Of a stretch of 64,000 bases of DNA, positions 2,734 through 51,867 are shown piece by piece (within the stretch, counting starts at the first letter, position 1; every line of letters begins with the position of its first letter). The stretch comes from Arenimonas donghaensis DSM 18148 = HO3-R19 (lineage in GTDB: Bacteria > Pseudomonadota > Gammaproteobacteria > Xanthomonadales > Xanthomonadaceae). The position numbers and the translations under genes were made by a program. The stretch spans positions 62,001 to 126,000 of the forward strand of contig NZ_AVCJ01000023.1 of the NCBI RefSeq assembly GCF_000743535.1, written 5' to 3'. The notes below the pieces were generated by a model, which searched no databases, was not told the DNA's origin, and saw only the letters and a list, made by a program, of their open reading frames with translations.

Positions 2734-2812
2734 TGTAGGAGCGGCTTCAGCCGCGAAGCATTTGACCTTGCCTTGGGCAAGGAAGGACTTCGCGGCTGAA
2801 GCCGCTCCTACA
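2734..2812. repeat. Palindromic intergenic repeat, family A (copy 1)
   Basis: The left arm TGTAGGAGCGGCTTCAGCCG (start 2734) is inverted at the right end, finishing CTCCTACA at 2812. Each arm is itself a hairpin, GCGGCT-TC-AGCCGC. A third hairpin sits in the centre: CCTTGCC-TTG-GGCAAGG (2766-2782). It lies between the converging secreted-protein gene and the gamma-glutamyltransferase gene. There is no T tail, so it is not a simple terminator. Confidence 0.9.
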
Positions 2813-2833
2813 GATTTGTTAGTAGCCGTTTCG

Positions 2834-4564
2834 TCAGTAACCCGCCGCCTGGCCGTCCTTGCGGCTTTCCGAGGCCCCGGCGTACACGCCGGTCCCGGGG
2901 TCGCGGGCGATGGCCTGGTAGCCGCCGTAGGGACCATCCGCGAACTCGATAGTGTGACCCTTGCGCATCAGCGCGCGGATGGTTTCGTAGGCGAAGCCGG
3001 TCTCGAGATTGAGCACGCCGCCATCGCTCATCTCGACCATCTGGCCGGCCGGGTCGGTGCTGCCGTCGTGCTGGATGCGCGGGGCGTCACCGGCTTCCTG
3101 CAGGTTCATGCCGAAGTCGACCAGGTTCATCACGATCTGGGCGTGGCCCTGGGGCTGCATCGCGCCACCCATCAGGCCGAAGCTGACCCAGGGCTTGCCG
3201 TCCCGGGTGATGAAAGCCGGAATGATCGTGTGGAAAGGCCGCTTGCCCGGCGCGAACGTGTTCGGGTGGCCGGCCTTGAGCACGAACTGCTCGCCGCGGT
3301 CCTGGAAGATGAAGCCCAGGCCGGGCGCCGCCATGCCGCTGCCCATGCCGCGGTAGTTGGACTGGATCAGCGACACCATCATGCCGTCCTGGTCGGCGGT
3401 GGTCAGGTAGATCGTATCGCCGTGCTGCAGGATGCCGGCATCGACGGACCGGGCGGCCCGGTCGGGATTGATCAGCTTGCGGCGTTGCGCGGCGTAATCC
3501 TCCGAGATCAGCTCGCGCACCAGTTTCGCGGCCTGTTCCCGGTTCCCGTCGCGCGCCGGGAAGAAATCCGGGTCGGCATACCAGCGCGCGCGGTCGGCGA
3601 AAGCCAGCTTCTTGGCTTCGACGAACAAGTGCACATGCTCGGCGCTGCCGAATTCGATCTTCGAAAAGTCGTAACCCTCGAGGATTTCGAGGATCTGCAG
3701 GGCAGCGATGCCCTGGCCGTTGGGCGGCAGTTCCCAGACGTCGACGCCGCGGTAGTTGGCGCTGGCCGGCTCGACCCACTCGCCCTGGTGGGCGGCGAGG
3801 TCTTCGTAGCGAAGGAAGCCGTCGTTCTCCCGGAAGTAGGCGTCGATGGTGCGGGCGATGTCACCCTTGTAAAAGGCATCGCGGCCCTCGCGGCCGATGG
3901 TCTCGAGGGTGTTGGCCAGGTTGGGGTTCTTCCACAGCTCGCCGGTGCGTGGCGCCCGGCCGTCGACGGTGAACTGCGCGCTGAAGCCTGGCCATTTCGA
4001 TAGCACGGGCACGCTGCGGTCCCAGTAGTAGGCGATGGTGTCGTGCACGGGATGGCCTTCGCGGGCGTAGCGTACCGTCGGCGCCAGTACGTCGGCCATC
4101 GGCAGCTTGCCGAAGCGGCCGTGCAGCGCAAACCAGCCATCCACCGCGCCCGGCACCGTCACCGGCAGCGGGCCATGCGGCGGGATGTCGGTGTACCCGT
4201 TTTCCTGGAACCACTTCAGCGACAGACCCTGCGGCGAACGGCCCGAGCCGTTGTAGCCGTGCAGTTTCTGCGTCCTTGGATCCCAGACCATGGCGAACAG
4301 GTCACCGCCGATGCCGTTGCCGGTCGGCTCCATCAGGCCCAGCGCGGCATTGGCCGCAATGGCCGCGTCCACGGCGCTGCCGCCCTGCTTCATGACGTCC
4401 AGCGCGACCTGGGTGGCCAGGGGGTGCGAGGTGGCGGCCATCGCATGGGGCGCGTAGACCACCGAGCGGGTGGCGAAGTCGCGGCCGGTGATGCGGTCGG
4501 CGGCAGGTGCGCTGCCGGCCGCCGCGGTGGCGGCCAGGGTGAGGGCTATCAACGAAAGTCGCAT
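2834..4564 (-). CDS. ggt: Gamma-glutamyltransferase-family hydrolase, exported
   Basis: This 576-residue Ntn-hydrolase moves or hydrolyses gamma-glutamyl groups of glutathione-like substrates, probably in the periplasm. The start at 4564 gives a signal peptide (residues 1-22, ending APA). An open frame continues upstream, but it would remove the signal from the N-terminus. The G-G-S-A-V-D-A-A-I-A block (residues 61-70) and G-N-G-I-G-G-D (82-88) are typical of the family. The precursor is expected to cleave itself before Thr384 in GDTIYLTTADQDG; this aligns with Thr391 of the E. coli enzyme, although the usual TTH is TIY here. The C-terminal part carries S-F-G-L-M-G-G. It is divergently oriented from the AEC transporter with 120 bases between starts. 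It may belong to the YwrD-like branch rather than classic Ggt. Confidence 0.88.
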   Translation of the reverse strand: MRLSLIALTLAATAAAGSAPAADRITGRDFATRSVVYAPHAMAATSHPLATQVALDVMKQGGSAVDAAIAANAALGLMEPTGNGIGGDLFAMVWDPRTQKLHGYNGSGRSPQGLSLKWFQENGYTDIPPHGPLPVTVPGAVDGWFALHGRFGKLPMADVLAPTVRYAREGHPVHDTIAYYWDRSVPVLSKWPGFSAQFTVDGRAPRTGELWKNPNLANTLETIGREGRDAFYKGDIARTIDAYFRENDGFLRYEDLAAHQGEWVEPASANYRGVDVWELPPNGQGIAALQILEILEGYDFSKIEFGSAEHVHLFVEAKKLAFADRARWYADPDFFPARDGNREQAAKLVRELISEDYAAQRRKLINPDRAARSVDAGILQHGDTIYLTTADQDGMMVSLIQSNYRGMGSGMAAPGLGFIFQDRGEQFVLKAGHPNTFAPGKRPFHTIIPAFITRDGKPWVSFGLMGGAMQPQGHAQIVMNLVDFGMNLQEAGDAPRIQHDGSTDPAGQMVEMSDGGVLNLETGFAYETIRALMRKGHTIEFADGPYGGYQAIARDPGTGVYAGASESRKDGQAAGY

Positions 4565-4684
4565 GGCGCAATTCCCCAGGTTCGGAATGGACAGGGTCGA
4601 GATGGGCGAAGATAACGCAGCCCGGCCTTCGCATTCGGTGAATGCCGCGGCAATGCCCCTCCCTCGCAAGGAATCCACCGCCCG

Positions 4685-5599
4685 ATGGCTTTCGACGCCT
4701 TCGCCCTGATCCTGACCATGCTGGCCCTGGGCCTGCTGTTCCAGCGCCTGCGCGTGTTTCCCGACAGCGCGCCGGAAGTCCTGAACAAGGTCGTGCTTTA
4801 CGTCTGCCTGCCCGCGGCGGTGCTGCGTTATGCGCCGCGCCTGGAACTGGGCCCGGAGGTGCTTGCCGTGGCCGCCGTGCCCTGGGCGCTCTTGGCGGCG
4901 ACCGTGCTGGCGGTCACCGGCATGACCCGCTTGCTGCGCCTGCGCCGCGACCAGCATGCGGTACTGCTGCTGTGCGTGGCACTGGGCAACACCAGTTTCC
5001 TGGGCTACCCGCTGGTGCGCGCGCTGCTGGGCGAAGCCGCGCTGCCGTACGCCGTCATCTACGACCAGTTCGGCGCCTTCCTCATCCTGTCCACGTTCGG
5101 CCTGTACGTACTGGCGCGCTACGGCGGCGACGCCGAACCGACCGCGCGCGACACCGTGCGACGCGTCGCCACGTTTCCGCCCTTCCTGGCCCTGGTCTTC
5201 GGTCTGACGCTGATGCCCGCCGAGCCGCCGGCCTGGATCGCCGGTGCCTTGCAGCGCCTCGCCGACGCACTGCTGCCCCTGGTCGTGCTGGCGATCGGCC
5301 TGGGCCTGAAACTGAAGCTGCCGGGTGACGAACTCAAGCCGCTGGCGGCCGGCCTCGCGCTGAAACTGCTGGTGATGCCCGCGCTCGCGCTCGGCCTGGT
5401 GGCGTGGTTGCCGATGGATGCCATAGCCGCTGACACCGCGGTGCTCGAATCCGCGATGCCACCGATGATCACCGCCGCGGCGTTAGCGATATCGCACCGA
5501 TTGGCCCCGTCGCTGGCTTCGGCTTTGGTCGGCTATGGCATCCTGTTCTCACTCGCCACGCTGCCCGCCTGGGCCTGGCTGCTGACGAACTACCTGTAG
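4685..5599 (+). CDS. AEC-family membrane transporter
   Basis: This 304-residue inner-membrane protein has about ten hydrophobic segments in the five-plus-five layout of the auxin efflux carrier (AEC) family. In bacteria these carry malonate, malate or other small organic anions. Family signals include the early V-L-Y-V-C-L-P-A-A-V-L-R segment and C-V-A-L-G-N-T-S-F-L-G-Y-P (about residues 97-109), which matches the N-T-G-F-L-G-P motif. The ATG at 4685 follows a Shine-Dalgarno AAGGAA. The substrate cannot be told from sequence. The stop codon TAG (5597-5599) is part of a palindromic repeat arm, so the gene's end is shared with the repeat. Confidence 0.88.
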   Translation: MAFDAFALILTMLALGLLFQRLRVFPDSAPEVLNKVVLYVCLPAAVLRYAPRLELGPEVLAVAAVPWALLAATVLAVTGMTRLLRLRRDQHAVLLLCVALGNTSFLGYPLVRALLGEAALPYAVIYDQFGAFLILSTFGLYVLARYGGDAEPTARDTVRRVATFPPFLALVFGLTLMPAEPPAWIAGALQRLADALLPLVVLAIGLGLKLKLPGDELKPLAAGLALKLLVMPALALGLVAWLPMDAIAADTAVLESAMPPMITAAALAISHRLAPSLASALVGYGILFSLATLPAWAWLLTNYL

Positions 5600-5658
5600 G
5601 AGGGGCTTGAGCCCCGAAGTGCCTCGACTCTCCTGCAGGAACGGCCCTGGCCCCGAAG
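5595..5658. repeat. Decayed palindromic repeat with two arms in direct orientation (copy 2)
   Basis: Arm one, from 5595 (TGTAGGAGGGGCTTGAGCCC), and arm two, from 5634 (TGCAGGAACGGCCCTGGCCC), both read rightwards. All other two-arm copies in the window are inverted. Arm one keeps a perfect inner hairpin GGGGCT-TG-AGCCCC; arm two is imperfect. It supplies the stop of the AEC gene and ends just before the Shine-Dalgarno of the next gene. Confidence 0.75.
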
Positions 5659-5680
5659 CTCTGTTTCGACAGGAGTCCAA

Positions 5681-6700
5681 ATGCACAAGTACATCCTGCC
5701 AACCCTGCTCATGCTGGCCGCCGCCGCGTCGGCCCACGTCGAGCCCACCCCGGCCGAAACAGCCGAGCACCGCAACGATTACGCGCGTCTCCTGCTGGCG
5801 GCCGCCAACGCACCGGGCGACCTGGTGTCGGACGCCTACCTCGTGGAGATGATGGCCGTCGTTGGCCTGGCCCAGGCCGACGACGCTGCGATGGATCCGG
5901 CGCTTCACGATGAGCTCGGCGTGGCCCGGGACCGCCTGCAGCAGCGCGTGGCGGCCGGTCTGATGGACGAACCAGCCCTGCTGGCGACGATCGCCCACTG
6001 CCAGGGGCGCTACCTGCAGGGACGTGATTGCACCGCGCACTGGGCGCGCGTCGCGGAGTCTGCGCGCGGCAACGGCTACCTGCACCTCCAGCTGATGAAC
6101 CACGCGGCCGCCCAGGACGATGCAGTGTCCTTCGCGCGGCATGCCCAGATGGCCGCGCAGGCGGGAACGTTCGAGTCGACCCTTCCGGACATCTTCGCGA
6201 GCCTGTATGCCCGTTACCTGCAGGTCCCGGACGCGCTGTGGCCGACCGGCCAGGACCTCGGTGGACCCCGCAAGCAAGCCGGCGTGCTGGCCATGGCCAG
6301 CGGCACCGCGTTCGGGCTTCCTGCCTACCAGCAAACGTTTCGCCACTGCGAGGCCGCGCAGGACGAGGTCCGGCAATGGTGCGTGGCCGTGGCCCGGCGA
6401 CTGGCTGGCGACTCCAGCACGCTCATCGATCGAATGGTCGGCTCCGCGATCCTGCGCAAGCTTGGCTCGGAACAGGACAAGGCCTGGGCCGAGTCGCAGC
6501 GACGCCAGGACCAGTGGCTGTCCCGGGTCGGGTGGACCCTGGAGGATGAGTTCGACGATGCCCTGTGGGACAAGTATTTCGAGGTCTTCGCCAGGCAAGG
6601 CGAGATGGCGGCGATCCACTACGCCAACCAGGCACTTGGCCGCGCCCTCGAGCCGCCGGCCGATTGGCAGCCTTCCGCGTACGGCGCCGAAGTCAAGTGA
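5681..6700 (+). CDS. Secreted protein of unknown function, paralogue A
   Basis: This 339-residue protein starts at ATG 5681 with AGGAG five bases upstream. Residues 1-18 are a signal peptide ending ASA. No known domain was recognised. It aligns along its whole length with the next gene: both carry A-P-G-D-L-V-S-D-A near residue 45, a LYARY-QVP segment near 180, and two cysteine pairs with the same spacing (C-x9-C and C-x10-C). Conserved cysteine spacing in an exported protein suggests disulfides in the periplasm. The regular helices recall TPR-like repeats but no consensus TPR was found. The two genes are 32 bases apart and probably co-transcribed. Confidence 0.8.
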   Translation: MHKYILPTLLMLAAAASAHVEPTPAETAEHRNDYARLLLAAANAPGDLVSDAYLVEMMAVVGLAQADDAAMDPALHDELGVARDRLQQRVAAGLMDEPALLATIAHCQGRYLQGRDCTAHWARVAESARGNGYLHLQLMNHAAAQDDAVSFARHAQMAAQAGTFESTLPDIFASLYARYLQVPDALWPTGQDLGGPRKQAGVLAMASGTAFGLPAYQQTFRHCEAAQDEVRQWCVAVARRLAGDSSTLIDRMVGSAILRKLGSEQDKAWAESQRRQDQWLSRVGWTLEDEFDDALWDKYFEVFARQGEMAAIHYANQALGRALEPPADWQPSAYGAEVK

Positions 6701-6732
6701 AACCACCCGATTGCAGCAACCTGGAGAACACG

Positions 6733-7740
6733 ATGCGAACGGCAGCAACCCTTGGACTCCTTGGCGCAATGATGGCGGCGGTACCGGCGTCGGCCAACGA
6801 GGGCGCACAGGCCGTGGCCAGCCTGAACGTCCAGCTCGCCGCGGCCGAGGCGCCGGGCGACCTGGTCTCGGATGCGGCCTTGTTCAAGCTGTTCCCCGTG
6901 GTGCTCGGGTTCCAGCCGGATCCTGATTCGCTCGACCCGGCGTTGCGTTCCCGTGTGATGGCCGCGCAGATGGCGCTTGGCGAGCGGGTCGCCGGCGGGC
7001 TGGCCACCGACCCGACCGTGCTGGCCCTGGAGCTGCGTTGCCCGCCGGCGGCCAAGGCGTCGCAGGCCTGTGAGGCCCGCATGGATCGCCTGTCCGGACT
7101 GGCGGGTGACAACGCCTACCACCACGTCGTGCTGATGGGCACGGCTACGGCGCTGGGCGACCACGGCGCCGTGCTCGAACACGCCCGCCGTGCCGCCCGG
7201 GCACCGGACTACCACCACGACATAGCTACCGTTTTCTCGTCCCTGTACGCGCGTTATTCACAGGTGCCCGAATCGATGTGGCAGGCGCTGCGCGCGCCCG
7301 AAGGCCAGCGGCGCTCTCCGGGCGTCGAAGCCATGGCTTATGCCGCCGCCGTCGCGCTTCCGCACTACAAGTACATCTTCGACGCCTGCCGCGACCCCGC
7401 GGGCGAACTGCGCAGGCATTGCCTGGATATCGGCCGAAAGATGACGCACGGCTCCGGCGTGCTGCTCGACATCGAGGTCGGTGCGAAAATCGTTGCGAAG
7501 CTCGGTGGCGAGGACGACCAGGCGAAGGCACGACAGAAGCTGCGCGAGGCGCGCTGGCTGGGCCGGGCCGTCGCCACGCCAGAAGACTCGCTCGATGCCG
7601 CGCAGTGGGACGAATTTTTCGCCATCTATGCCCGTGAGGGCGAGCTCGCGGCCATGCGCTACGCCGCCACGGCCCAGGGCATCGCGCTCGTGCCGCCCAC
7701 GGGCTGGACCGGCGAACCGGAAGTCCGGCCCACGTCCTGA
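6733..7740 (+). CDS. Secreted protein of unknown function, paralogue B
   Basis: This 335-residue exported protein is the tandem paralogue of the gene before it. The start at ATG 6733 gives a clean signal peptide (residues 1-20, ending ASA); GGAGA lies seven bases before. Shared landmarks are A-P-G-D-L-V-S-D-A near residue 38, LYARYSQVPE near 174-183, cysteine pairs C-x9-C and C-x10-C, and a D-x-x-x-W-D-x-x-F/Y-x-x-x-x-A-R-x-G-E block near the C-terminus. It ends at 7740 with no gap to the stop codon of the convergent AAA ATPase gene (7741). Function unknown; a shared periplasmic role or heterodimer with paralogue A is a guess. Confidence 0.8.
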   Translation: MRTAATLGLLGAMMAAVPASANEGAQAVASLNVQLAAAEAPGDLVSDAALFKLFPVVLGFQPDPDSLDPALRSRVMAAQMALGERVAGGLATDPTVLALELRCPPAAKASQACEARMDRLSGLAGDNAYHHVVLMGTATALGDHGAVLEHARRAARAPDYHHDIATVFSSLYARYSQVPESMWQALRAPEGQRRSPGVEAMAYAAAVALPHYKYIFDACRDPAGELRRHCLDIGRKMTHGSGVLLDIEVGAKIVAKLGGEDDQAKARQKLREARWLGRAVATPEDSLDAAQWDEFFAIYAREGELAAMRYAATAQGIALVPPTGWTGEPEVRPTS

Positions 7741-9228
7741 TCAGTCAGCTGGCACGGTGCGGCTGCGCGCCCATTCGCGCAGCGCGTTGACCTGTTCGGC
7801 CATCAGCACGCTCAGCGGGCGGGTGGCGCCGACTTCGGACACCACGCGGGCTTCGTCCACCGGCACGCCGTCGGCGTGGGCGGCGTAGAGCGCGCTGACC
7901 ACGGCCTGTTCGATCTCGGCGCCTGAAAAACCATCGGCTGCGTTGGCCAGGGCATCGAGCGAAAACCCTTCCCAGTCCACTTCGCGTTTTTCCAGGTGCA
8001 GGCGGAAGATCTCCGCGCGGGCGCCGTGGTCGGGCAGATCGACGAAGAAGATTTCGTCGAAGCGGCCCTTGCGAAGAAGCTCCGGCGGCAAGTCGTTCAC
8101 GGCGTTGGCCGTGGCGACCAGGAAGACCTTGGACTTGCGCTCTGCCATCCAGGTCAGGAAATAACCCAGCACCCGCCGCGACACGCCGCCGTCCTCGCTG
8201 CTGGCCGAGGCGGCCAGGCCCTTTTCGAGCTCGTCGATCCACAGCACGCAGGGCGAAAGCTGCTCGGCCGAGGTGAGCGCGTCGCGCAGGTTCTTTTCGG
8301 TTTCGCCGTGGTACTTGTTGTACAGGGTGCCGAAATCCAGCCGTACCAGCGGCACGCCGAAACCGCCGGCCACGGCCTTGGCCGCCAGCGATTTTCCGCA
8401 GCCCTGCACGCCCAGCAGCAGCATGCCCTTGGGCGGGTCCAGCCCCGGGGGCAGGGCGTCGGCGGTGAAGGCGGCGCGGCGCTGGTTCACCCAGGCCTTC
8501 AGGCGTGCCAGCCCGGCCACGTCGGCGAACTGAGCGGTGTCGTATTCGAAATGCAGGTGGCCGGACTTGTTGAGCAGCTCGAACTTGAGCTTCGCCAGCT
8601 CGGGCAGGTCGCCGGCCTGGATCGCGCCATCGGCGAAGATCAGGTGCCGTGCCAGGCGCCGGGCCTCGGTCAGCGACAGGCCGCGCAGGTTGCGCACGAT
8701 CGCCCTGAGCGCCTCGGGGTCGACTTCGACGCGCTTGCCGCCGTGCTCGCGCATGTACAGCGCGGCTTCGTCCTTGACGGTCTTGAGCAGCGCGTTTTCA
8801 TCCGGGAGGCGCAGCGAGAATCGCACTGCGTGGTGTTCCAGGTCCGGCGGCAGCTCGATCTTCGCGCCCACCAGCACCAGGCTGTGGTCCAGGCTGCCGC
8901 GGCGCTCGAGCGTTTCACGCAGCAGGCGCTGGGTGGTGGCGTAGCCCAGGTAGGGGTGGAAATCGAGCAGCAGGCAGACACTGCGCTGGTCCAGGCCGCG
9001 GATCGTGCGCAGGGTGGTGGTGGCGTCGGGCGGGGCGATCGGCGGGTCCTCGGTATCGAGGTCCACGCGGCGCATGCCTTCGGTGATCGACCAGCGGTAC
9101 AGCGGCCGCCACACGTTCATCAGCAGGTGCCGGAACAGGTCCACCACCCGCGCTTCGTCCGGTGTCTCGATCACGATCAAGGCCGTGTTGGCACGCACCA
9201 GCGCGGTCAGGTCTTGCAGCTCGCTCAT
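7741..9228 (-). CDS. AAA-family ATPase, Ycf46-like
   Basis: This 495-residue cytoplasmic ATPase has a divergent N-terminal RecA-like region (about 1-220) and one intact AAA module. The Walker A is GVQGCGKS (273-280), the Walker B LWIDEL (329-334), sensor 1 VATAN (371-375) and the arginine finger lies in RKGRF (386-390). A C-terminal helical lid includes GFSGAEIEQAV. The architecture matches the Ycf46/COG0464 group, whose cellular role is not settled in bacteria. The ATG at 9228 is preceded by GAGGAA. It lies downstream of gltBD on the same strand but is separated from gltD by a palindromic repeat, so co-transcription is uncertain. Confidence 0.85.
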   Translation of the reverse strand: MSELQDLTALVRANTALIVIETPDEARVVDLFRHLLMNVWRPLYRWSITEGMRRVDLDTEDPPIAPPDATTTLRTIRGLDQRSVCLLLDFHPYLGYATTQRLLRETLERRGSLDHSLVLVGAKIELPPDLEHHAVRFSLRLPDENALLKTVKDEAALYMREHGGKRVEVDPEALRAIVRNLRGLSLTEARRLARHLIFADGAIQAGDLPELAKLKFELLNKSGHLHFEYDTAQFADVAGLARLKAWVNQRRAAFTADALPPGLDPPKGMLLLGVQGCGKSLAAKAVAGGFGVPLVRLDFGTLYNKYHGETEKNLRDALTSAEQLSPCVLWIDELEKGLAASASSEDGGVSRRVLGYFLTWMAERKSKVFLVATANAVNDLPPELLRKGRFDEIFFVDLPDHGARAEIFRLHLEKREVDWEGFSLDALANAADGFSGAEIEQAVVSALYAAHADGVPVDEARVVSEVGATRPLSVLMAEQVNALREWARSRTVPAD

Positions 9229-9284
9229 CCGGATTCCTCGTGAAGAGCTACAAGATTAGCCAATTCTCCCGGTCCTGGCCGCAA

Positions 9285-9354
9285 CCCTGTGGGAGGGACT
9301 TCAGTCCCGAAGCTCCTGCGGCAAAGCTTCGGGACTGAAGTCCCTCCCACAGGG
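9285..9354. repeat. Palindromic intergenic repeat, family B (copy 3)
   Basis: This is a perfect 30-base inverted repeat (9285-9314 and 9325-9354) around a ten-base spacer. The arm begins CCCTGTGGGAGGGACTTCAG, and the inner hairpin is GGGACT-TC-AGTCCC. It starts one base after the gltD stop codon (on the minus strand) and lies upstream of the AAA ATPase gene. Confidence 0.95.
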
Positions 9355-9355
9355 A

Positions 9356-15204: not shown

Positions 15205-15329
15205 GCGCCCCCCGCGGAAACCGATGCTTTCCCCACGCTCACACACTCATCTAGAGTATCTGCTCGGCTGCCTTCCTCGGCCGCGCCGGCCGGGGTAGAG
15301 TGGCCCTTCGTCCCGCAGCGGAGTGTGTG

Positions 15330-16454: not shown

Positions 16455-16458
16455 GCGG

Positions 16459-20043: not shown

Positions 20044-20112
20044 CCTGTGGGAGGGACTTCAGTCCCGAAGCCTTTGGGCGAAGGGCTTCGGGACTGAAGT
20101 CCCTCCCACAGG
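20044..20112. repeat. Palindromic intergenic repeat, family B (copy 4)
   Basis: A perfect 29-base inverted repeat (20044-20072 and 20084-20112) surrounds an 11-base spacer. The arm starts CCTGTGGGAGGGACTTCAGT, with inner hairpin GGGACT-TC-AGTCCC. It lies between the thioesterase and the acyltransferase genes and ends about 14 bases before a -10 element. Confidence 0.95.
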
Positions 20113-24882: not shown

Positions 24883-24961
24883 TGTAGGAGCGCCTTCAGG
24901 CGCGAATATTTTGCCTTTGCCCCTGGCAAAGAAGCGCTTCGCGCCTGAAGGCGCTCCTACA
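24883..24961. repeat. Palindromic intergenic repeat, family A (copy 5)
   Basis: The 24-base arms TGTAGGAGCGCCTTCAGGCG... (24883-24906 and 24938-24961) are perfectly inverted. The inner arm hairpin is GCGCCT-TC-AGGCGC, differing from copy 1 by compensating changes. The central hairpin CTTTGCC-CCT-GGCAAAG is at 24915-24931. It is ten bases upstream of the first NtrC box of glnA. Confidence 0.95.
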
Positions 24962-38947: not shown

Positions 38948-38950
38948 GGT

Positions 38951-39739: not shown

Positions 39740-39755
39740 GGCCGGAGGGCTGTTG

Positions 39756-40805: not shown

Positions 40806-40811
40806 GAGGTT

Positions 40812-41687: not shown

Positions 41688-41706
41688 ACGGGTGCGTGCG
41701 GTGTCG

Positions 41707-41728
41707 GGGTATGATTCCCATCATACCC
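41707..41728. promoter_or_regulatory. Perfect operator-like palindrome between divergent genes
   Basis: GGGTATGAT-TCCC-ATCATACCC is a 9-base perfect dyad. TATGAT is present on both strands (41710-41715 plus, 41725-41720 minus), so each arm could be the -10 of one of the two divergent genes (starts 41687 and 41768). A regulator bound here would control both. Confidence 0.65.
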
Positions 41729-41767
41729 ATCGAAACGTGGACGGCTGGTCCCCCGACCGCCGCAGGC

Positions 41768-42712: not shown

Positions 42713-42746
42713 CCCCCCGAACAAGTTCGAGCAAGGAGTGAACCGC

Positions 42747-44024: not shown

Positions 44025-44032
44025 TCCACTTG

Positions 44033-44084
44033 TGTGGGAGGGACTTCAGTCCCGAAGCTTTTCGGGACTGAAGTCCCTCCCACA
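44033..44084. repeat. Palindromic intergenic repeat, family B, minimal form (copy 6)
   Basis: The 24-base arms (44033-44056 and 44061-44084) are perfectly inverted with only GCTT between them. The arm begins TGTGGGAGGGACTTCAGTCC. It lies between the converging thiolase and hemY genes, eight bases from each stop codon, and may stop transcription from both sides. Confidence 0.95.
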
Positions 44085-44092
44085 AAAAGCGG

Positions 44093-45340: not shown

Positions 45341-46350
45341 GGGCTGGCGTCCCGGCCGCGGCGCAGGTCGCGCAGCTGCTGCAGGGCGGCGCCGGCATCG
45401 GGCAGGGCCGGCGCCAGCGGCTGGTCGGCCAGCGCCTGCAGGCGTTCGCGGCGTTCGCGCAGCAGCGCGTCGTCGGCGTACAGGCGCTGCAGCCATTGGT
45501 CGATGCGCTGCAGGCTGGCGCGGAACGCGGCCTGGTCGCGGCGCTCGAGCGCGGTGCGCGCCAGTGCCAGTTCCAGCGCCAGCGTGGCTTCGCCAGTGGC
45601 GCGGTCCGCGGGGGAAATCAGGTCCTGGCTGCTGCTGGGCCGCACCTGCACGATGGCGTCCAGGATGCGCTGCCAGCGCGAGTCGCCAGCACCGGCGGCA
45701 GGCGGCGCGCCCGGAGCGCGGCTCGACAGCCGCGGCAGCGTGCTCTCGAGGGCGTCGAGTTCACCGGCGGCCAGGTCGCGCGGGTCGGCCGGCAAGGCGC
45801 GCAGCGCGGCGATTTCCTGGGCCAGGGTCTGGCGCAGGCTGATGAACTGCGGGTCGGTCATGGCCGCCAGTGCCTGCTGCGCAAGCACCAGTGAGCGCAC
45901 GGCACCGTCGATGTCGCCGGATACGGACAGGCGCGCCTGGGCCAGGCCCAGCAACAGCTCGACTTCGTCCAGGCGCAGGGCCTCGGCACCTTCGGCGGCC
46001 TGCGAGCTGACTTCGCGCAGGTTGTCTTCCAGGATGGCCGCGCGCTGGCCCAGGCCCAGGACTTCTTCACGCAGCAGGCTGGTGCGGGCCTGGGTATCGC
46101 CCAGGCGCTGCTCGAGCGACTGCTGGTTGCGACGCAGCGAAGCGGCGCCCTGTTCGGCTTCGAGCAGGCGGGCGTCGAGCGCCTCGGGGCTCAGGTCGGG
46201 GCCGGCATCATCCGGTGTCGCCTGGTGTGCCCACCACCACCAGCCGCCGGCGACGGCCAGTGCAAGCAGGGCCAGGGCCAGCAGCCAGGCAAAGGGACCG
46301 GCGCCACGGCGCCGTTGGGTTTCGGGAAGATCGTCGTGCTCGGTGTCCAC
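45337..46350 (-). CDS. hemX: HemX-like membrane protein
   Basis: This 337-residue protein has one transmembrane helix (about residues 19-40) after a basic arginine cluster, then a coiled-coil-like helical stretch (about 55-125) and a helical C-terminal domain. It matches HemX, annotated as uroporphyrinogen-III methyltransferase-like but lacking methyltransferase motifs. It lies 30 bases after hemD and overlaps hemY. Confidence 0.88.
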   Translation of the reverse strand: MDTEHDDLPETQRRRGAGPFAWLLALALLALAVAGGWWWWAHQATPDDAGPDLSPEALDARLLEAEQGAASLRRNQQSLEQRLGDTQARTSLLREEVLGLGQRAAILEDNLREVSSQAAEGAEALRLDEVELLLGLAQARLSVSGDIDGAVRSLVLAQQALAAMTDPQFISLRQTLAQEIAALRALPADPRDLAAGELDALESTLPRLSSRAPGAPPAAGAGDSRWQRILDAIVQVRPSSSQDLISPADRATGEATLALELALARTALERRDQAAFRASLQRIDQWLQRLYADDALLRERRERLQALADQPLAPALPDAGAALQQLRDLRRGRDASP

Positions 46351-46380
46351 GGGGGCATCAACTCGGGTATCGGCGCCATG

Positions 46381-47157
46381 CTACCGGAAGCGCCCGCGGG
46401 CAACATCGGCCGCCAGGGCCTCGACCAGGGTCGCCGGCGCGGCGCCCGACGCCAGGACGATGGCCTGGAAGCCCAGCCCGGCCAGGTGGGCGGCGAGCCT
46501 GGCGCTGCTGGCCACCGCCGGCCGCACCCGCACCGCTTCGCGGCAGGCCTCGTCCAGTCGCCGCCACAGGCCGTCGAAGGCCTCCTGGCTGCTCACCAGC
46601 AGCGCACTTTGTCGCGGCAGCTTGCGCAGCATGCGCAGGCGGCCGGCGCGGGGGTGCAGCGGTTCGCGTCGGTAGACGTTGGCGCGGTGGATCTCGCTGC
46701 CGCGCTGGGCCAGGGTTTCGGCGATCAGCCCGCGTCCTCCGGGAGCCGTGACCAGGCCCACCGACGACGGCGGTGGCTGCAGTTCCGGCAGGGCCAGCAG
46801 CGCCTCGGAGTCGGTACCGTCATCGGGCACCCGGACCTCGTCGATGCCCGCACGCTGCAGGGCCCGCGCAGTGGCTTCCCCCAGCGCCAGCCAGGGCTGG
46901 CCCGGCCGCGCGACCAGTGGCAGCTGCCGGCGCGCGAACTGCACCGCCGCCGGACTGGTGACGATGACCAGCGGACAGGCCAGCGCCGCCTGCAGCGCCG
47001 CGCCGGCCGGCAAGGGCCGCAGGGCCAGCGTCGAAATCGAAAGCGTGCGTGCGCCCAGCGTCGTGGCCGCGTGCCGGACCGGCGCATGGCTGCCAGAGGG
47101 GCGCAGCGAGATGACGTACCATCCCGCCAGCGTTGGCGCGGACCGTTGGCTGTCCAT
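46381..47157 (-). CDS. hemD: Uroporphyrinogen-III synthase
   Basis: This 258-residue enzyme closes and inverts ring D of hydroxymethylbilane in tetrapyrrole synthesis. The family is weakly conserved; here W-Y-V-I-S-L-R-P opens the fold, V-T-S-P-A-A-V-Q-F-A is the first domain's conserved loop, and L-L-V-S-S-Q-E-A-F-D-G-L the second. The ATG at 47157 is chosen over an open frame extending 53 codons upstream into the divergent gene. HemC is not adjacent in the window. It leads the hemDXY operon, which supports the call. Confidence 0.88.
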   Translation of the reverse strand: MDSQRSAPTLAGWYVISLRPSGSHAPVRHAATTLGARTLSISTLALRPLPAGAALQAALACPLVIVTSPAAVQFARRQLPLVARPGQPWLALGEATARALQRAGIDEVRVPDDGTDSEALLALPELQPPPSSVGLVTAPGGRGLIAETLAQRGSEIHRANVYRREPLHPRAGRLRMLRKLPRQSALLVSSQEAFDGLWRRLDEACREAVRVRPAVASSARLAAHLAGLGFQAIVLASGAAPATLVEALAADVARGRFR

Positions 47158-47196
47158 GCCGCAAGCTTGGCACAGCCCCGGGGGAAACGGCACGGC

Positions 47197-47646
47197 ATGA
47201 CCGAACTCGACCACATCAACGCGCACTACGACGCCATGCCGCCCGTGCGGGCGATGCAGGTCAGGGCGGTGCGCTACGACGGCCAGTCGCTGGAACTGCA
47301 CGCGCCGCTCTCGCACAACCTCAACGACAAGGCCTGCGCCTTCGGCGGCAGCCTGGTCAGCCTGATGACCCTGGCCGGCTGGGGCCTGATGACCCTGAAG
47401 CTTCGCGAGGCCGGCATCCGCGCCGATGTCTACGTGGCCGACAGCCAGGTCCGCTACCTGGCGCCCCTGTATGCCGACCTCGCCGCCCGGGCGACGCTGG
47501 CGCCCGACGTCGACTGGTCGTCGGTGCTGCAGGCCTGGAACGCGCGTGGCCGGACCCGCGCCGGCATCACGGCGTCGGTGTCGGCCCCGGATGGCAGCGT
47601 CGTGGCCGATCTGCAGGGCCGCTACGCCGCGCTCCGGCCGACCTGA
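47197..47646 (+). CDS. YiiD C-terminal-type thioesterase
   Basis: This 149-residue protein has a hotdog-like pattern: D-K-A-C-A-F-G-G-S-L-V-S-L-M-T-L-A-G-W-G (about residues 44-63), with R-Y-L-A-P-L in a later strand. It corresponds to the stand-alone form of the YiiD C-terminal domain. ATG 47197 has GGGGGAAA upstream. It is divergent from hemD, with 39 bases between starts. Confidence 0.8.
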   Translation: MTELDHINAHYDAMPPVRAMQVRAVRYDGQSLELHAPLSHNLNDKACAFGGSLVSLMTLAGWGLMTLKLREAGIRADVYVADSQVRYLAPLYADLAARATLAPDVDWSSVLQAWNARGRTRAGITASVSAPDGSVVADLQGRYAALRPT

Positions 47647-47666
47647 GACGACGGCGCCGGGGTGTG

Positions 47667-47672
47667 CATAAT
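47667..47672 (+). promoter_or_regulatory. -10 element seven bases before a lipoprotein ATG
   Basis: CATAAT ends seven bases before ATG 47679, so transcription would begin at the start codon itself. A weak -35 (CTGAGA, 47643-47648) is at 18 bases. Confidence 0.45.
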
Positions 47673-47678
47673 GGCGGC

Positions 47679-48104
47679 ATGAAGACCCTGCCCCGCTTCC
47701 TGCATGCCGGCCTCGTCCTCGCCCTGGCCCTGCTTCTGGCCGCCTGCGCCACCAGCGGCCAGCGCAGCCCGCGCGAGGAGACGCTCTACAACTACGTCAG
47801 CGCCGTGCGCTGGAGCGACTTCGACGTCGCGGCGAAATTCCTGGATCCGCAGCTGCGCGAGGCCCGGCCCCTGACCGACCTCGAACTCGAACGCTACCGC
47901 CAGTTCCAGGTCTCGGGCTACGAAGTGAAGTCGGCCAGCGAACCGGCCGAAGGCGAATACCTGCAGGTGGTCGAGATCCGGGTGGTGAACCGCCACACCC
48001 AGGTCGAGAAGGTGCTGACCGACCGCCAGCGCTGGCGCTGGGACCCCGAGGCCAGGCGCTGGTGGCTGGCCAGCGGCCTGCCCGACCTCGACGCCGCCCG
48101 CTGA
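47679..48104 (+). CDS. Small lipoprotein of unknown function
   Basis: This 141-residue protein has a signal peptide ending in the lipobox LLAAC (Cys24 or thereabouts). The mature part is hydrophilic with an alternating strand pattern (Y-L-Q-V-V-E-I-R-V-V-N-R) and a tryptophan-rich end (R-W-R-W-D-P-E-A-R-R-W-W-L), which suggests a compact NTF2-like or beta-sheet fold. An overlapping out-of-frame ATG at 47671 is not used. It sits between the thioesterase and yibN genes. Confidence 0.78.
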   Translation: MKTLPRFLHAGLVLALALLLAACATSGQRSPREETLYNYVSAVRWSDFDVAAKFLDPQLREARPLTDLELERYRQFQVSGYEVKSASEPAEGEYLQVVEIRVVNRHTQVEKVLTDRQRWRWDPEARRWWLASGLPDLDAAR

Positions 48105-48109
48105 CCGGT

Positions 48110-48138
48110 TTGGCCCGCGACGCCGCGGGCCGCATAAT
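48110..48138 (+). promoter_or_regulatory. Promoter of yibN
   Basis: TTGGCC (48110-48115), a 17-base spacer and CATAAT (48133-48138) precede the ATG at 48171 by about 25 bases of leader. Confidence 0.6.
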
Positions 48139-48170
48139 GCCGGCCCCCACGCCGAGCAAACGCGCCGTCC

Positions 48171-48602
48171 ATGGATCAGCTGATCGTTTTCTTCCAAGCC
48201 AACCTGCTGCTGTCCCTGGCCTTGCTGGGCCTGACGGTGGCCCTGGTGTTCACTGAAGTCTCCCGCCTGTTCCGTGGCTTCAAGGGTGTCAGCCCGTCCC
48301 AGCTGACCGCCCTGATCAACCACGAAGACGCGCTGGTGCTCGACATCCGGGGCCAGGCGGACTTCGAGAAGGGCCACATCATCGGCTCGCGCCACCTGCT
48401 GCCGAGCCAGGTCGACCCCGAGGGCAAGCTGCTCGCGAAGGCGAAGGAAAAGCCGGTCGTGGTGGTCTGCGCCGCGGGCATGACCGCCACCGGCGTCGCC
48501 GCGCGCCTGGTCAAGGCCGGCTTCAAGCGCGTGAGCGTGCTCGACGGCGGCATCGGCGCCTGGCAGCAGGCTGGCCTGCCGCTGGCCAAGGGCAAGGCCT
48601 GA
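48171..48602 (+). CDS. yibN: Membrane-anchored rhodanese-like protein (YibN type)
   Basis: This 143-residue protein has one N-terminal transmembrane helix (about residues 8-28) and a rhodanese domain with the active-site Cys100 in VVVCAAGMTATG and the conserved V-L-D-I-R. It would handle sulfane sulfur near the inner membrane. In E. coli yibN opens a yibN-grxC-secB-gpsA row; here secB follows directly and grxC is absent, which supports the name and marks a lineage difference. Confidence 0.88.
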   Translation: MDQLIVFFQANLLLSLALLGLTVALVFTEVSRLFRGFKGVSPSQLTALINHEDALVLDIRGQADFEKGHIIGSRHLLPSQVDPEGKLLAKAKEKPVVVVCAAGMTATGVAARLVKAGFKRVSVLDGGIGAWQQAGLPLAKGKA

Positions 48603-48641
48603 TCCCCCTTCCCCGGCGGTTTCGCCCGGCCCCGGCCGGCA

Positions 48642-48650
48642 TGCGATAAT
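48642..48650 (+). promoter_or_regulatory. Extended -10 promoter of secB
   Basis: TG-C-GATAAT is an extended -10 element, which can work without a -35. The ATG lies 39 bases downstream. Confidence 0.55.
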
Positions 48651-48689
48651 CCCGGGTCTTTCATCGTCTTCATATTCCGGAGTTCCACC

Positions 48690-49196
48690 ATGGCCGAGCA
48701 GAACAACGGCACCGCCGCCGCCGCAACGAACGACCAGCAGGCGCAGTTCACCATCCAGAAGATCTACGTCAAGGACGTGTCCTTCGAAGTCCCGAACGCG
48801 CCGCAGGTGTTCAACGAGCCGGGCCAGCCGCAGCTCGAGCTCAACCTCAACCAGAAGGTCGGTCGCGTTTCCGACGGCCTGTTCGAAGTCGTGCTGCACG
48901 TCACCCTGACCTGCAAGCTGGCCGAAAAGACCGTCTACCTGGCTGAAGTGCAGCAGGCCGGCCTGTTCTCGCTGGCCAACTTCGACGAGCGCACCCTGGA
49001 CATGATGCTCGGCACCTACTGCCCGAACGTGCTGTTCCCGTACGTGCGCCAGACCCTGGGCGAACTGGTGTCCAACGGTGGCTTCCCGCCGTTCTACCTG
49101 CAGCCGATCAACTTCGAGGCGCTGTACGCCGAAGGCCTGCGTCGCCGCGCCGAGCAGGCGCAGGGCGCCCAGGCCCCCGAGGCCGGCAACGCCTGA
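48690..49196 (+). CDS. secB: Protein-export chaperone SecB
   Basis: This 168-residue homotetrameric chaperone keeps preproteins unfolded and delivers them to SecA. Family signs are [31 protein letters not shown] and [15 protein letters not shown] lies seven bases before ATG 48690. It is followed by gpsA after 14 bases, a widely conserved pairing. Confidence 0.97.
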
Positions 49197-49210
49197 AGCC
49201 GGGTGCGCCG

Positions 49211-50233
49211 ATGACCTCGGCCAAGCCGTCGTTCGCCGTGCTCGGGAGTGGTTCCTGGGGCACGGCGCTCGCTTCGCTGATCGCCCGCAACGGGCATCCG
49301 ACCACGATCTGGGGGCGCGACGCCGCCCAGGTCGAGGCGATCGCCCGTACCCACGAGAACCCGCGCTACCTGCCGGGCATCGCCCTGCCCGAAGCACTGC
49401 AGGGCAGCGCCGACCTCGCGGCCACCGTAGCCGCGGCCGACTACGTGCTGGTGGTGACGCCCAGCCACGCTTTCACCGAAACCCTGCGCGCGCTGGCGCC
49501 GCATCGTCGCGCCAACGCCGGCGTCGCCTGGGCCACCAAGGGCTTCGAGCCCGGTTCCGGGCGCTTCCTGCATGAAGTCGCCGCCGAGGCCCTGGGCCCC
49601 GGCGTGCCGGTGGCGGTGGTCACCGGCCCGTCCTTCGCCAAGGAAGTGGCGCAGGGCCTGCCGACGGCGGTCACCGTGCATTCGGACGACGAAAGCTTCG
49701 CCCAGGACATCGCCGGCTCGCTGCACGGCGCCGCGTTCCGGGCCTACACCGGCAACGACATGCTGGGCGCCGAACTGGGCGGTGCGATGAAGAACGTGCT
49801 GGCCGTGGCCACCGGCGTCGCCGACGGCATGGCCCTGGGGCTCAACGCCCGCGCGGGACTGATCACCCGCGGCCTCAATGAGATGCTGCGGCTCAACGTC
49901 GCCATCGGTGGCAAGGCCGAAACCCTGATGGGCCTGGCGGGCCTGGGCGACCTGGTGCTGACCTGCACCGGCGACCTGTCGCGCAACCGCCGCCTGGGCC
50001 TGGCCCTGGGGCGTGGCCAGTCCATCGCCGAGGCGGTGGCCGCCATCGGCCAGGTGGTCGAATCGGTGCAGACCGCCGATGAAGTGATGCGCCTGGCCGA
50101 ACGCCATGGCATCGAGCTGCCCATTTCCGCGCTCGTGCGCGAAGTGCTGCACGGCCATATCACGCCGGTCGAAGGCCTGAAGATGCTGCTCGCGCGCGAG
50201 CAGAAGCCGGAATTCCCCGAAGGCCTGTTCTAA
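49211..50233 (+). CDS. gpsA: Glycerol-3-phosphate dehydrogenase (NAD(P)+)
   Basis: This 340-residue enzyme reduces dihydroxyacetone phosphate to sn-glycerol-3-phosphate for phospholipid synthesis. The dinucleotide loop is [10 protein letters not shown] (residues 12-21). G-P-S-F-A-K-E-V and the catalytic lysine of [10 protein letters not shown] follow, with G-L-G-D-L-V-L-T-C near residue 247. ATG 49211 fits; the gene ends before a palindromic repeat. Confidence 0.97.
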
Positions 50234-50242
50234 GGCCAGGAA

Positions 50243-50329
50243 CCCCGTAGGAGCGGCTTCACAGCCGCGAATCTTCCGGCTTTGCCTTTGGCAAAGAACA
50301 ACTTCGCGGCTGAAGCCGCTCCTACGGGG
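50243..50329. repeat. Palindromic intergenic repeat, family A (copy 7)
   Basis: The arms are CCCCGTAGGAGCGGCTTC... (50243-50271) and its inverse (50303-50329). The left arm has a two-base insertion (CA) in the inner hairpin loop. The central hairpin CTTTGCC-TTT-GGCAAAG (50280-50296) is intact. It lies between converging gpsA and an Ax21-like gene. Confidence 0.93.
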
Positions 50330-50339
50330 CGTTGCTGGC

Positions 50340-50903
50340 TTAGAAGCTGGCGCGCAGGCCCACCTGGTAGGTTTCGGCGTCATCGTCGAAGGTGACGTCG
50401 CCGGTGATGCCCCAGGTCGGGGTCAGCTTGACCAGGCCGCCGACGGTGCCGCTGAAGTTGCCGTCGAAGTCGTCGCCGTCCACGTAGTTGGCCTTCACCA
50501 GGCCTTCGAGGCGATCGGTGAGGCCACTGCGCAGGCCGATCGAGGTGCGGTAGCCGTTGCCGTCGATGGCGCCGCCGGGCACCGCGACTTCGGTGTCGAG
50601 GTAGGCGGCTTCGGCGAACAGGTCGCTGCGGTCGCTCAGCGGCAGGGCGTAACCGAGGCCCAGTTCGCGGCCATCGAGCTTGACCGGCGAGTTGTCGAGC
50701 TCAAGCCGGGTGACGCCAGCCAGGCCGTACACGTTGGACTCGCCGAACTCGAACGAGCCGCGCACCGCGTGGCCTTCGGCATCCCCGTCGGCGTTGACGT
50801 AGCTGCCCTGCACCCAGGTGTTGCTCGGGGATTCCTGCGCCTGGACGGCGAACGGCAGGGTGGCGGCGAAAGCGAGGGCGATTGCGAGCTTGGTGCGTTT
50901 CAT
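50340..50903 (-). CDS. Ax21-like outer-membrane beta-barrel protein, paralogue 1
   Basis: This 187-residue protein has a signal peptide (cleavage after VQA, residue 22) and eight or so amphipathic strands with N-A-D-G-D-A-E-G type acidic loops. It ends with the outer-membrane signature strand Y-Q-V-G-L-R-A-S-F (terminal Phe). It matches the Ax21 family of Lysobacterales, small barrels exported by the Sec and Bam systems. The ATG at 50903 has AAGGAA nine bases upstream. Tandem with a close paralogue 229 bases upstream. Confidence 0.82.
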   Translation of the reverse strand: MKRTKLAIALAFAATLPFAVQAQESPSNTWVQGSYVNADGDAEGHAVRGSFEFGESNVYGLAGVTRLELDNSPVKLDGRELGLGYALPLSDRSDLFAEAAYLDTEVAVPGGAIDGNGYRTSIGLRSGLTDRLEGLVKANYVDGDDFDGNFSGTVGGLVKLTPTWGITGDVTFDDDAETYQVGLRASF

Positions 50904-51056
50904 CGGGGGGATTCCTTTCGTTTGGGGGGAGGCCCGGTCCATGCCGGGCAGGCACGAGTATTCAAAACCTGCCCGAACTCCCGGTTAACGACGGCGCGAA
51001 CCTGAAGGAACCTGCGGCTGAACAGGTTCAGCTATCGCGCCCGGCGATGAATGCGC

Positions 51057-51082
51057 AAGAAAAAGCCCGGCTTGCGCCGGGC
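51057..51082 (-). terminator. Rho-independent terminator of Ax21-like paralogue 2
   Basis: On the minus strand GCCCGGC-GCAA-GCCGGGC (51082-51065) is followed by five T residues and a T-rich tail (51064-51057). It lies 51 bases after the stop of the upstream barrel gene and separates the two paralogues into two transcripts. Confidence 0.9.
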
Positions 51083-51095
51083 CTCTTCTGTTGCC

Positions 51096-51120
51096 TGCAG
51101 GAGCGGCTGAAGCTCCTACA
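51096..51120. repeat. Remnant of a family A palindromic repeat (copy 8)
   Basis: TGCAGGAG (51096-51103) and CTCCTACA (51113-51120) are the two outer ends of the family A element with the central part deleted, leaving a nine-base loop. It lies between the stop codon of the Ax21-like gene and its terminator. Confidence 0.7.
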
Positions 51121-51132
51121 AGCGGTGCGTCG

Positions 51133-51681
51133 TCAGAAGCTGGCGCGCAGGCCGACCAGGTAGGTCTCGCCGCCGTCGCCGACTTCGACTTCGCCGACCA
51201 TGCCCCAGGTCTTGGTGAACTTGTACTGGGCGCCGATGGTGGCGGTGAAGTCACCGTCGAAGTTGTCGCCGTCGACGTAGTTCGCCTTCAGCGTGCCCTC
51301 GAAGTTGGGCGAGAACGAACCACGCACGCCCACCGAGGCGCGGTAGCCGTCGAGGTCGCCGAAACCGTCGACGTCGGCGTTGAGGTAGGAGATCTCGGAC
51401 AGCAGGTCGACGTTCTTGGACAGGCCATGGGCGTAACCCAGGCCGATGTCGAAGGAATCGACGTCGATGTTCGTGTTGTCGATCTCGACGACGTTGTAGC
51501 CGCCGAAGCCGTAGAAGCCGGACTGGCCGAACTCGAAGGAGCCGCGGACGCCGAAGCCGTCGGCATCGCCGTCGACGTTGATGTAGTCGCCTTCGATCCA
51601 GGTGTAGCTGAGCTTGTCGTCGGCCTGCGCGGACAGCGGCAGCAGGGCCGCCAGGGACAGGGCAATCAGGGAACGCTTCAT
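51133..51681 (-). CDS. Ax21-like outer-membrane beta-barrel protein, paralogue 2
   Basis: This 182-residue protein has a signal peptide (cleavage after AQA, residue 20), strands alternating with D-G-D-A-D-G loops, and the C-terminal strand Y-L-V-G-L-R-A-S-F ending in Phe. It aligns end to end with the previous gene and is closer to the Ax21 type sequence (Y-T-W-I-E-G-D-Y-I-N near the start). It is clearly outer-membrane; signalling roles claimed for Ax21 are disputed. GGAAAG precedes the ATG at 51681. Confidence 0.85.
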   Translation of the reverse strand: MKRSLIALSLAALLPLSAQADDKLSYTWIEGDYINVDGDADGFGVRGSFEFGQSGFYGFGGYNVVEIDNTNIDVDSFDIGLGYAHGLSKNVDLLSEISYLNADVDGFGDLDGYRASVGVRGSFSPNFEGTLKANYVDGDNFDGDFTATIGAQYKFTKTWGMVGEVEVGDGGETYLVGLRASF

Positions 51682-51813
51682 GGTGTTCTTTCCAATGTTG
51701 TGGGGCCCCGCGATGCGGGGTGAGCGGAGTATCCGCATGGCGCCACAACGGTTGATTAACGAAAGCCGTTTTTCGCCCGCACCCTGTCGTCAGTCATGGG
51801 TCGCAAATGGGCG

Positions 51814-51867
51814 CTGTGGGAGGGGCGTCAGTCGCGGAGGCCTTCGGGACTGACGTCGCTCCCGCAG
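51814..51867. repeat. Degenerate family B palindromic repeat overlapping the trmL 3' end (copy 9)
   Basis: The arm from 51814 (CTGTGGGAGGGGCGTCAG) and the inverted arm ending CTCCCGCAG at 51867 are family B with several mismatches. Read on the minus strand, the element encodes the last 12 residues and the stop codon of TrmL. Confidence 0.85.

Follow-up and report, generated by a model that had tools for sequence, protein, structure and literature searches.

What keeps a set of intergenic palindromes paired when the letters of their stems differ from copy to copy? The question is raised by a 64,000-nucleotide stretch of the Arenimonas donghaensis DSM 18148 genome (contig NZ_AVCJ01000023.1, positions 62,001 to 126,000; here called the window), in which nine such loci occur. 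A reading of this DNA made from its letters alone (the sequence-only reading) had likened them to repetitive extragenic palindromic (REP) sequences and bacterial interspersed mosaic elements (BIMEs) moved by REP-associated tyrosine transposases (RAYTs, or TnpA-REP proteins). That likeness is supported by three RAYT genes in this genome, two of which each lie among REPs of a single stem type. We conclude that the window repeats are very probably REPs, mostly arranged as REP doublets forming hairpins (REPINs), nonautonomous elements that are copied via folded single-stranded DNA by RAYT Y1 enzymes encoded elsewhere in the genome. The basis computed here consists of copy number, unit design, the RAYT genes, covariation across species, and the comparison of an occupied with an empty gene junction. 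For the window system, the biology is known and the genome and genus are new.

The units in the window share the design GTRGGA, a 5-nt stem, a TTSA loop, a 5-nt partner, and GAA. Twelve exact GTRGGA-N5-TTSA-N5-GAA units are present, and 100 dinucleotide-preserving shuffles contained none; with up to three mismatches tolerated there were 34 matches against 17.3 expected, and inexact matches were used only where located at known loci. The sequence-only reading had given the nine loci a shared frame of GTRGGAG, six bases, and TTSA; the repeats themselves stand, but that literal formula has no match in the window, because the T and A of the loop had been counted in both stem and loop, and it was replaced by the design above. 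The nine loci comprise five intact inverted pairs, one pair with a loop insertion, one singlet, one degenerate pair, and one remnant, and the description of the repeats as usually paired is borne out by seven of the nine, one degenerate. The stems of the 12 exact units (GCGGC in 3, GGGGC in 1, GGGAC in 6, and GCGCC in 2) are all fully matched by their partners, as had been claimed for stems of six rather than five bases, and the match fails in the degenerate pair at 51815. When folded as single-stranded DNA, the seven paired loci gave z scores of -6.4 to -13.6 and no shuffle folded equally well, with the pair at 44033..44084 forming a perfect 24-bp inverted repeat around a 4-nt loop; neither the singlet nor the remnant is remarkable alone (Table 1). 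A simple codon-usage gene call, which supplied the gene positions in the window, places eight of the nine loci between genes, two of them between convergent and two between divergent genes, and has the degenerate pair overlap the start of a called open reading frame (ORF). An Rfam search of the window returned nothing at gathering scores.

Exact-frame units number 247 in the whole genome (51 contigs, 2,975,084 bases), 124 on one strand and 123 on the other, and the reversed pattern has no copy. The search pattern imposed no pairing, so the genome count is a fair test of it. Among 173 units listed of the 247 (the first 100, plus two complete sets defined by stem position 4: the 24 units in which it is G or T and the 88 GTAG units in which it is A or C), stem and partner pair completely in 168, of which 167 are Watson-Crick throughout and one has a G-T pair, and five units have one mismatch; one more mismatched unit was found among REP loci fetched separately. 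The outcome that the sequence-only reading had named as grounds for rejecting structural conservation, namely stems that change on one side only or halves without correlation, did not occur. The 168 paired units fall into GCGCC/GGCGC (86), GGGAC/GTCCC (59, with a GTGG head in 58 and GTAG in one), GCGGC/GCCGC (18), and the rarer GGGGC/GCCCC (4) and GGGGC/GTCCC (1). Each family is almost uniform in stem, the head base is tied to stem type, and mixed-family pairs occur, GCGGC with GCGCC at C1:116167/116229 and GGGAC with GCGCC at C1:118973/119027. Stem types thus largely mark REP families rather than repairs at each locus. The earlier idea that sequence varies with pairing kept therefore holds for the pairing and not for covariation locus by locus, the variation being mostly between families, with four stem types in the window.

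As the sequence-only reading had stated, the window contains no RAYT gene; a PF01797 profile search of the genome found three (RAYT1 to RAYT3), all of them elsewhere, with scores of 114.5, 119.8, and 91.9 bits against the NCBIfam model NF047646 for REP-associated tyrosine transposases, whose cut-off is 80. The proposed search for a RAYT flanked by the same repeat succeeded for two of them, on both sides of the gene: RAYT1 (C1:111605-112018) is located between two inverted GCGCC pairs, that is, REPINs, and RAYT2 (C8:16787-17197) has seven GGGAC units around it, two on one side and five on the other. RAYT1 also matches a solved TnpA-REP structure, 4er8 (E value 0.0011), and the HUH motif reads HWH in RAYT1 and RAYT2 and HWQ in RAYT3. 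In the RAYT tree, RAYT1 and RAYT2 fall with the RAYTs of Arenimonas metalli and Arenimonas malthae in one group of eight Arenimonas rows (support 97/90), whose stems are GCGCC, GGGAC, GGCCC (the GGGCC type), and GCGGC. A. malthae has one RAYT flanked by GCGGC REPs, and A. metalli has two, one with GGGCC-type stems and one with GGGAC. Since four stem types occur within one such group, stems have changed within the genus, and Arenimonas offers a genus where REP stems change between related RAYTs.

Independent evidence of covariation comes from across species and not from the window alone. We collected 98 RAYT loci (the three described above, 15 from genus members with five duplicates dropped, and the best 80 further loci) and scanned 450 bp on each side of the RAYT with the pattern GTRGGA-N14-GA, which leaves pairing and loop unconstrained; the set was fetched with the RAYTs of this genome and leans toward its REP design. 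Units were present at 73 of the 98 loci, 304 in all, with 263 fully paired and 254 of these purely Watson-Crick. The nearest unit was fully paired at 66 of the 73 loci, and re-dealing the 3' halves gave a mean of 14.9 and a maximum of 26 in 5000 draws. Units are also far denser near RAYTs, at 304 in ∼135 kb, than more than 1 kb away, where 325 kb held 45 (37 paired). In a pair count on 45 of the 55 distinct nearest units, paired cells make up 95.6% and covariation reaches 0.641 versus 0.143 in shuffled sets, and slid partners gave nothing similar. All five stem pairs change on both sides, although that count was reached by 29 of 500 shuffles and the number of pair types by 25 of 500, which makes these the weaker measures. 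On the RAYT tree, stem type requires 31 changes, against a mean of 44 and a minimum of 40 in 200 shuffles, so stem type follows the tree more than expected by chance.

Junctions compared between species bear on mobility. The REPIN at 44033-44084 sits in a 68-nt gap between convergent genes (window 44025-44092), and 18 of the 26 same-genus genomes matching the region were compared there (loci L325-L342). Eight of these have the orthologous junction without an element, with gaps of -4 nt (G018, G011, G022), 3 nt (G003, G019), 9 nt (G023), 10 nt (G010), and 20 nt (G002). Other palindromes occupy it in G021, G020, and G004, a different REPIN-like pair in G008, and other DNA in G006, G012, G013, and G025; one anchor was not found in G017, and A. 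metalli (G026) has a whole RAYT gene with its GGGCC REPs. One junction thereby offers a natural series, empty in some species and filled in others by a REPIN, other palindromes, or a whole RAYT. A second case lies near RAYT3 (L075:3363-4647, C12), where a 1.3-kb insert with a 243-amino-acid ORF, matching no Pfam family above the cut-off, stands between inverted GCGCC REPs. In ten relatives this site measures ∼8 to 30 nt (G004, G023, G002, G019), ∼150 nt (G026), or ∼70 nt with a matching REP piece (G020), and four of the ten have no right-side match. As a separate observation, the palindromes at the first junction in G020 and G004 (L326, L327; GGGGTCAG...) are long, near-perfect, and of another kind, and may mark the ends of a further family of hairpin elements.

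Published work on related enzymes suggests how such a pattern could arise. According to those parts of the Marinomonas and Stenotrophomonas study that concern recognition, TnpA-REP proteins read a folded single strand, with the importance of the GTAG head differing by enzyme; in the T-T-N-A loop of the Marinomonas pair every letter but N is critical and T and A probably pair, and a stem mismatch harms cleavage, yet several stem letters can be changed (PMC8266576). By analogy, the RAYTs of A. donghaensis would read the GTRG head and T-T-N-A loop of the folded strand, would require a paired stem with a fair tolerance of its sequence, and would cut beside the hairpin. The invariant GTRG and T-T-S-A letters, combined with a free but matched stem, fit this recognition scheme. 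We propose that the stems covary because the enzyme needs a helix and not its letters, a requirement under which they would drift in matched pairs. GCGCC REPs would follow RAYT1 and GGGAC REPs RAYT2, and the 18 GCGGC units would either have outlived a RAYT since lost or be served by another in trans.

Several observations weigh against this account. No frame unit lies within 450 bp at 25 of the 98 RAYT loci, in a scan that would overlook REPs of another design, and pairing is incomplete in 7 of the 73 nearest units. No RAYT in this genome is flanked by REPs of the GCGGC or GGGGC type. RAYT and REP are also not always linked: RAYT3 (L033:1399-1911, C12) has no REP within 700 bp, and in its well-supported clade of 13 rows, all from Arenimonas or the same genus, no fully paired unit lies near the 12 others. 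A guide-sequence test looked for the different flanking dinucleotides that a published guide model would predict beside GTAG and GTGG units and did not find them, the flank of both being the same pyrimidine-rich CCT. Finally, the junctions give presence and absence between species, evidence that does not show the mechanism, and movement itself was unobserved. RAYT3 is conserved in Arenimonas (relatives at L244, L249, L251, L253, L254, L256, and L258-L261); its HWQ motif recurs in G011 and G022 and is HWH in G026, G023, G002, and G019, these six being the relatives covered by the motif reading, with none for G018, G020, G021, and G004. By its motif and surroundings it looks domesticated or bound to something else.

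The same data bear on other ways to account for paired stems. The hairpins might be kept as RNA structures, as terminators or stabilizers of mRNA 3' ends, with stems covarying under RNA-level selection and mobility incidental. The two loci between convergent genes would suit such a role, as would the unrelated palindromes that several relatives carry at the 44025-44092 junction, as if any hairpin served there; but 8 of the 18 relatives have no hairpin at that junction at all, and two of the nine are located upstream of both neighbors, between divergent genes. A scan for intrinsic terminators, in which a stem is followed by a T run, covered two 20-kb stretches with seven of the nine loci (those at 20046 and 24883 fall outside them) and scored none of the seven. 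G-U pairs are scarce, 254 of the 263 fully paired units near RAYTs being Watson-Crick only, and the units cluster around RAYT genes, so we regard an RNA-level origin of the pairing as improbable. Still more so, to the point of being hardly credible, is a single repeat family in which each locus restores its own stem through independent compensatory mutations. Four matched stem types do occur in one genome, and the four GGGGC/GCCCC units could derive from GGGAC/GTCCC by a double change. However, copies within a type are nearly identical and the head base is linked to the stem: among units with A or C at stem position 4, GCGCC/GGCGC accounts for 86 of the 88 with a GTAG head, and GGGAC/GTCCC for 58 of the 61 listed (of 135) with a GTGG head. 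Deviants are mostly single-sided, with 5 mismatches and 1 wobble in the 173 units listed.

More delicate is the status of the GCGGC units: instead of being left over from a RAYT that the genome has lost, they may still be active, with RAYT1 moving them in trans. Their GTAG head and TTCA loop are also those of the GCGCC REPINs, window REPINs of both types have a 31-nt spacer, the mixed pair at C1:116167/116229 joins the two stems, and one RAYT in G012 is flanked by both. On the other hand, there are only 18 exact GCGGC units against 86 of GCGCC, the related A. malthae RAYT has GCGGC at its own flanks, and RAYT loss that leaves relic REPs behind is on record in the portion of the literature drawn on here (PMC3686654). 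We give movement in trans a serious but somewhat less than even chance; the reading of the window repeats as RAYT-dependent REPs accommodates either fate.

REPs of this genome also bound something larger than a REPIN. Outside the window, four inverted GCGCC pairs 510 to 600 bp apart enclose a noncoding core with large internal hairpins, forming elements of 535 to 625 bp (Table 1). A genome search with the core, in which 40 of 75 candidates were scored, found about a dozen full or partial copies which, over most of them, are 76 to 96% identical to the query copy. Five of these copies carry REPs at both ends, from two families in all; of the others, some have a single terminal REP, some have degenerate ends, and some run to the edge of a contig. 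When nine copies were aligned, their similarity ended at the REPs in those copies that have them, and a GGGAC-type unit persists inside three GCGCC-capped copies, as though their ends had been swapped. It may be that REPs from different families cap and spread a large, structured noncoding cargo, which would be new to description and is better supported than the RsmA-related form of the idea given below. The element, possibly a new find, is promising but unproven, and it could serve to test whether RAYTs move cargo hundreds of bases long.

The element core contains a hairpin (module 1) whose relatives keep a 58-nt apical part and have outer stems that differ yet stay complementary. Its 53 matches were reduced to 26 rows under 90% identity, and 22 were aligned. 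In these the drawn structure agrees with RNAalifold, 97.0% of cells are paired, and 21 of 27 pairs change on both sides, values that none of 500 shuffles reached; the four omitted rows pair poorly in the outer stem (10 to 18 of 26 positions), and their omission favors the covariation reading. With all 26 rows, the outer stem pairs at all 26 positions in 13, at ≥23 in 20, and at ≤18 in six in that register. A 110-nt MAFFT alignment placed gaps in the outer stems and was set aside for rows of 74 nt. In 51 distinct model matches, loop 2 reads A-N-GGA-Y in all 51 and loop 3 A-N-GGA in 50, counts favored by a model built on such loops. The module model (R1) finds 11 copies in this genome, and the module is present in 36 of 149 genomes, this one included, at most 32 candidates having been scored per genome. 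The best window match, at 12.5 bits (E value 0.92), is taken as none, and a single 126-nt query found no match in plasmid and phage collections. Copies lie at L282:541-614, L278:504-577, L267:540-613, and L354-L373, among other loci, and are often arranged as back-to-back doublets; in the relative G003 seven aligned doublets end in long inverted ends of their own, not in REPs. A second module likewise has GGA loops and covariation on 12 rows. RAYT3 was considered as the enzyme of the GGA module and set aside, RAYT3-like loci being found in G002, G011, and G019, where model R1 found nothing.

Several GGA hairpin-loop motifs, as in CsrB/RsmZ-type RNAs, are found in the module, and the genome has one CsrA. 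It is conceivable, if rather doubtful, that REP ends picked up and spread this second element, large hairpins whose A-N-GGA loops are kept as putative RsmA/CsrA sites and whose stems drift in matched pairs. RAYT systems would then disperse RsmA decoys or RsmA-binding 3'-end sites through Lysobacterales genomes, and the elements would swap REP ends between RAYT families while spreading. G-U pairs, which when rare suit DNA better than RNA, are scarce in the module stems (18 of 1377 cells versus 1319 Watson-Crick and 40 unpaired), so selection may be acting on folded single-stranded DNA and not on RNA. The candidate RNA TwoAYGGAY, which has two AYGGAY loops, resembles the module in its GGA loops. 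GGA in hairpin loops is common to the module and CsrB/RsmZ-type RNAs, and the module loops are near the RsmA consensus ACARGGAUG as given in the part of PMC3937308 used here; unlike those RNAs, module copies are dispersed repeats with stems almost without G-U and no Rfam family at threshold. In the Xanthomonas RNA RsmU, changes of GGA to AAU did not abolish RsmA binding, as far as the relevant portion of PMC7694677 reports. The GGA module could be used to test whether hairpin repeats act on RsmA.

For the module, nothing in Rfam scored at the gathering level. Over five REP/RAYT loci and nine module loci, one transfer RNA was above threshold and the remaining matches were below it, mostly to animal or plant microRNA models, which we take as models fitting any long hairpin. 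Below threshold were also an RsmW match at L270 (20.4 bits versus 52, E value 6.2) and, as a side observation, six module-locus matches to the Yersinia small RNA Ysr224 (16.6 to 25.2 bits versus 70, best E value 0.031; Table 1). The module is undescribed as far as Rfam and literature joining RsmA/CsrA, repeats, and either Xanthomonadaceae or Lysobacter go, the latter checked partly by title and abstract start.

Table 1. Coordinates of the window repeats (first nine lines) and of related features elsewhere
Feature	Position	Units or strand	Remarks
REPIN, GTAG head, stem GCGGC/GCCGC, loop TTCA, inner spacer hairpin	2734..2812	2735-2757 (+), 2789-2811 (-)	z -13.6; between convergent genes
REP singlet, GTAG head, stem GGGGC/GCCCC, loop TTGA	5595..5619	+	Weak fold alone, z -2.1
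REPIN, GTGG head, stem GGGAC/GTCCC	9288..9351	9289-9311 (+), 9328-9350 (-)	z -12.3
REPIN, GTGG head, stem GGGAC/GTCCC	20046..20110	20047-20069 (+), 20087-20109 (-)	z -11.9
REPIN, GTAG head, stem GCGCC/GGCGC, same as REPs around RAYT1	24883..24961	24884-24906 (+), 24938-24960 (-)	z -12.0
REPIN, GTGG head, stem GGGAC/GTCCC	44033..44084	44034-44056 (+), 44061-44083 (-)	z -11.6; between convergent genes
REPIN, stem GCGGC/GCCGC	50246..50326	50247-50271 (+, 2-nt loop insertion), 50303-50325 (-, exact)	z -8.9
Collapsed REP remnant	about 51096..51120		z -1.6; outside called genes
Degenerate REPIN	51815..51867	51816-51838 (+), 51843-51865 (-)	z -6.4; 2 frame mismatches in each unit, stems unmatched
GCGCC-capped element copies	C43:4004-4572, C43:110867-111436, C43:156038-156662, C12:20786-21320 (L071-L074)		REPs at both ends
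GGGAC-type-capped element copy	C1:517238-517820 (L085:1433-2015)		End units with one frame mismatch each
Ysr224 matches	L278:469-570 and 790-890, L280:446-543, L281:474-582 and 590-686, L282:509-601		Sub-threshold Rfam

Repeats of other kinds are also present in the window. The stretches at 4-457 and 2220-2670, ∼2.2 kb apart, share direct repeats of 300 nt at 79% identity and 132 nt at 98%, and a 181-nt direct repeat (77% identical) at 50329-50509 and 51122-51302, 793 bp apart, probably represents two related neighboring genes.

Arenimonas is not named among the matches listed in our search of the REP/RAYT literature, and the system has close counterparts there. In the sections of the Nunvar studies compared here (Nunvar 2010, 2013; PMC2817692, PMC3686654), the REPs of Stenotrophomonas, Xanthomonas, and Pseudomonas have in common with ours the GT(A/G)G head and a short perfect stem, and the GA before the stem is common to REPs here and in Pseudomonas and Xanthomonas. 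There as here, RAYTs are delimited by inverted REPs and a genome has several classes, each with a RAYT; hybrid clusters, preserved complementarity, and abundant classes without a RAYT of their own likewise recur. TTCA-loop units with GGGAC, GCGCC, or GCGGC stems were not found in those sections. With the REPINs of Bertels and Rainey (2011; PMC3116915), as described in the part of that paper considered, our elements share the inverted doublet as the unit, a hairpin formed by the whole, compensatory changes, an extragenic location, and a tie to specific RAYTs; unlike them, some pairs here enclose 500 to 600 bp instead of a short spacer, and ours are known from genome sequence only. The GTGG-specific change of cleavage site that appears in the relevant part of the Marinomonas and S. 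maltophilia TnpA-REP work (Corneloup 2021; PMC8266576) is not visible in the flanks here. The T, T, and A critical in the Marinomonas loop are the very letters that are invariant in the TTSA loop of the Arenimonas units, a correspondence known on our side from sequence alone.

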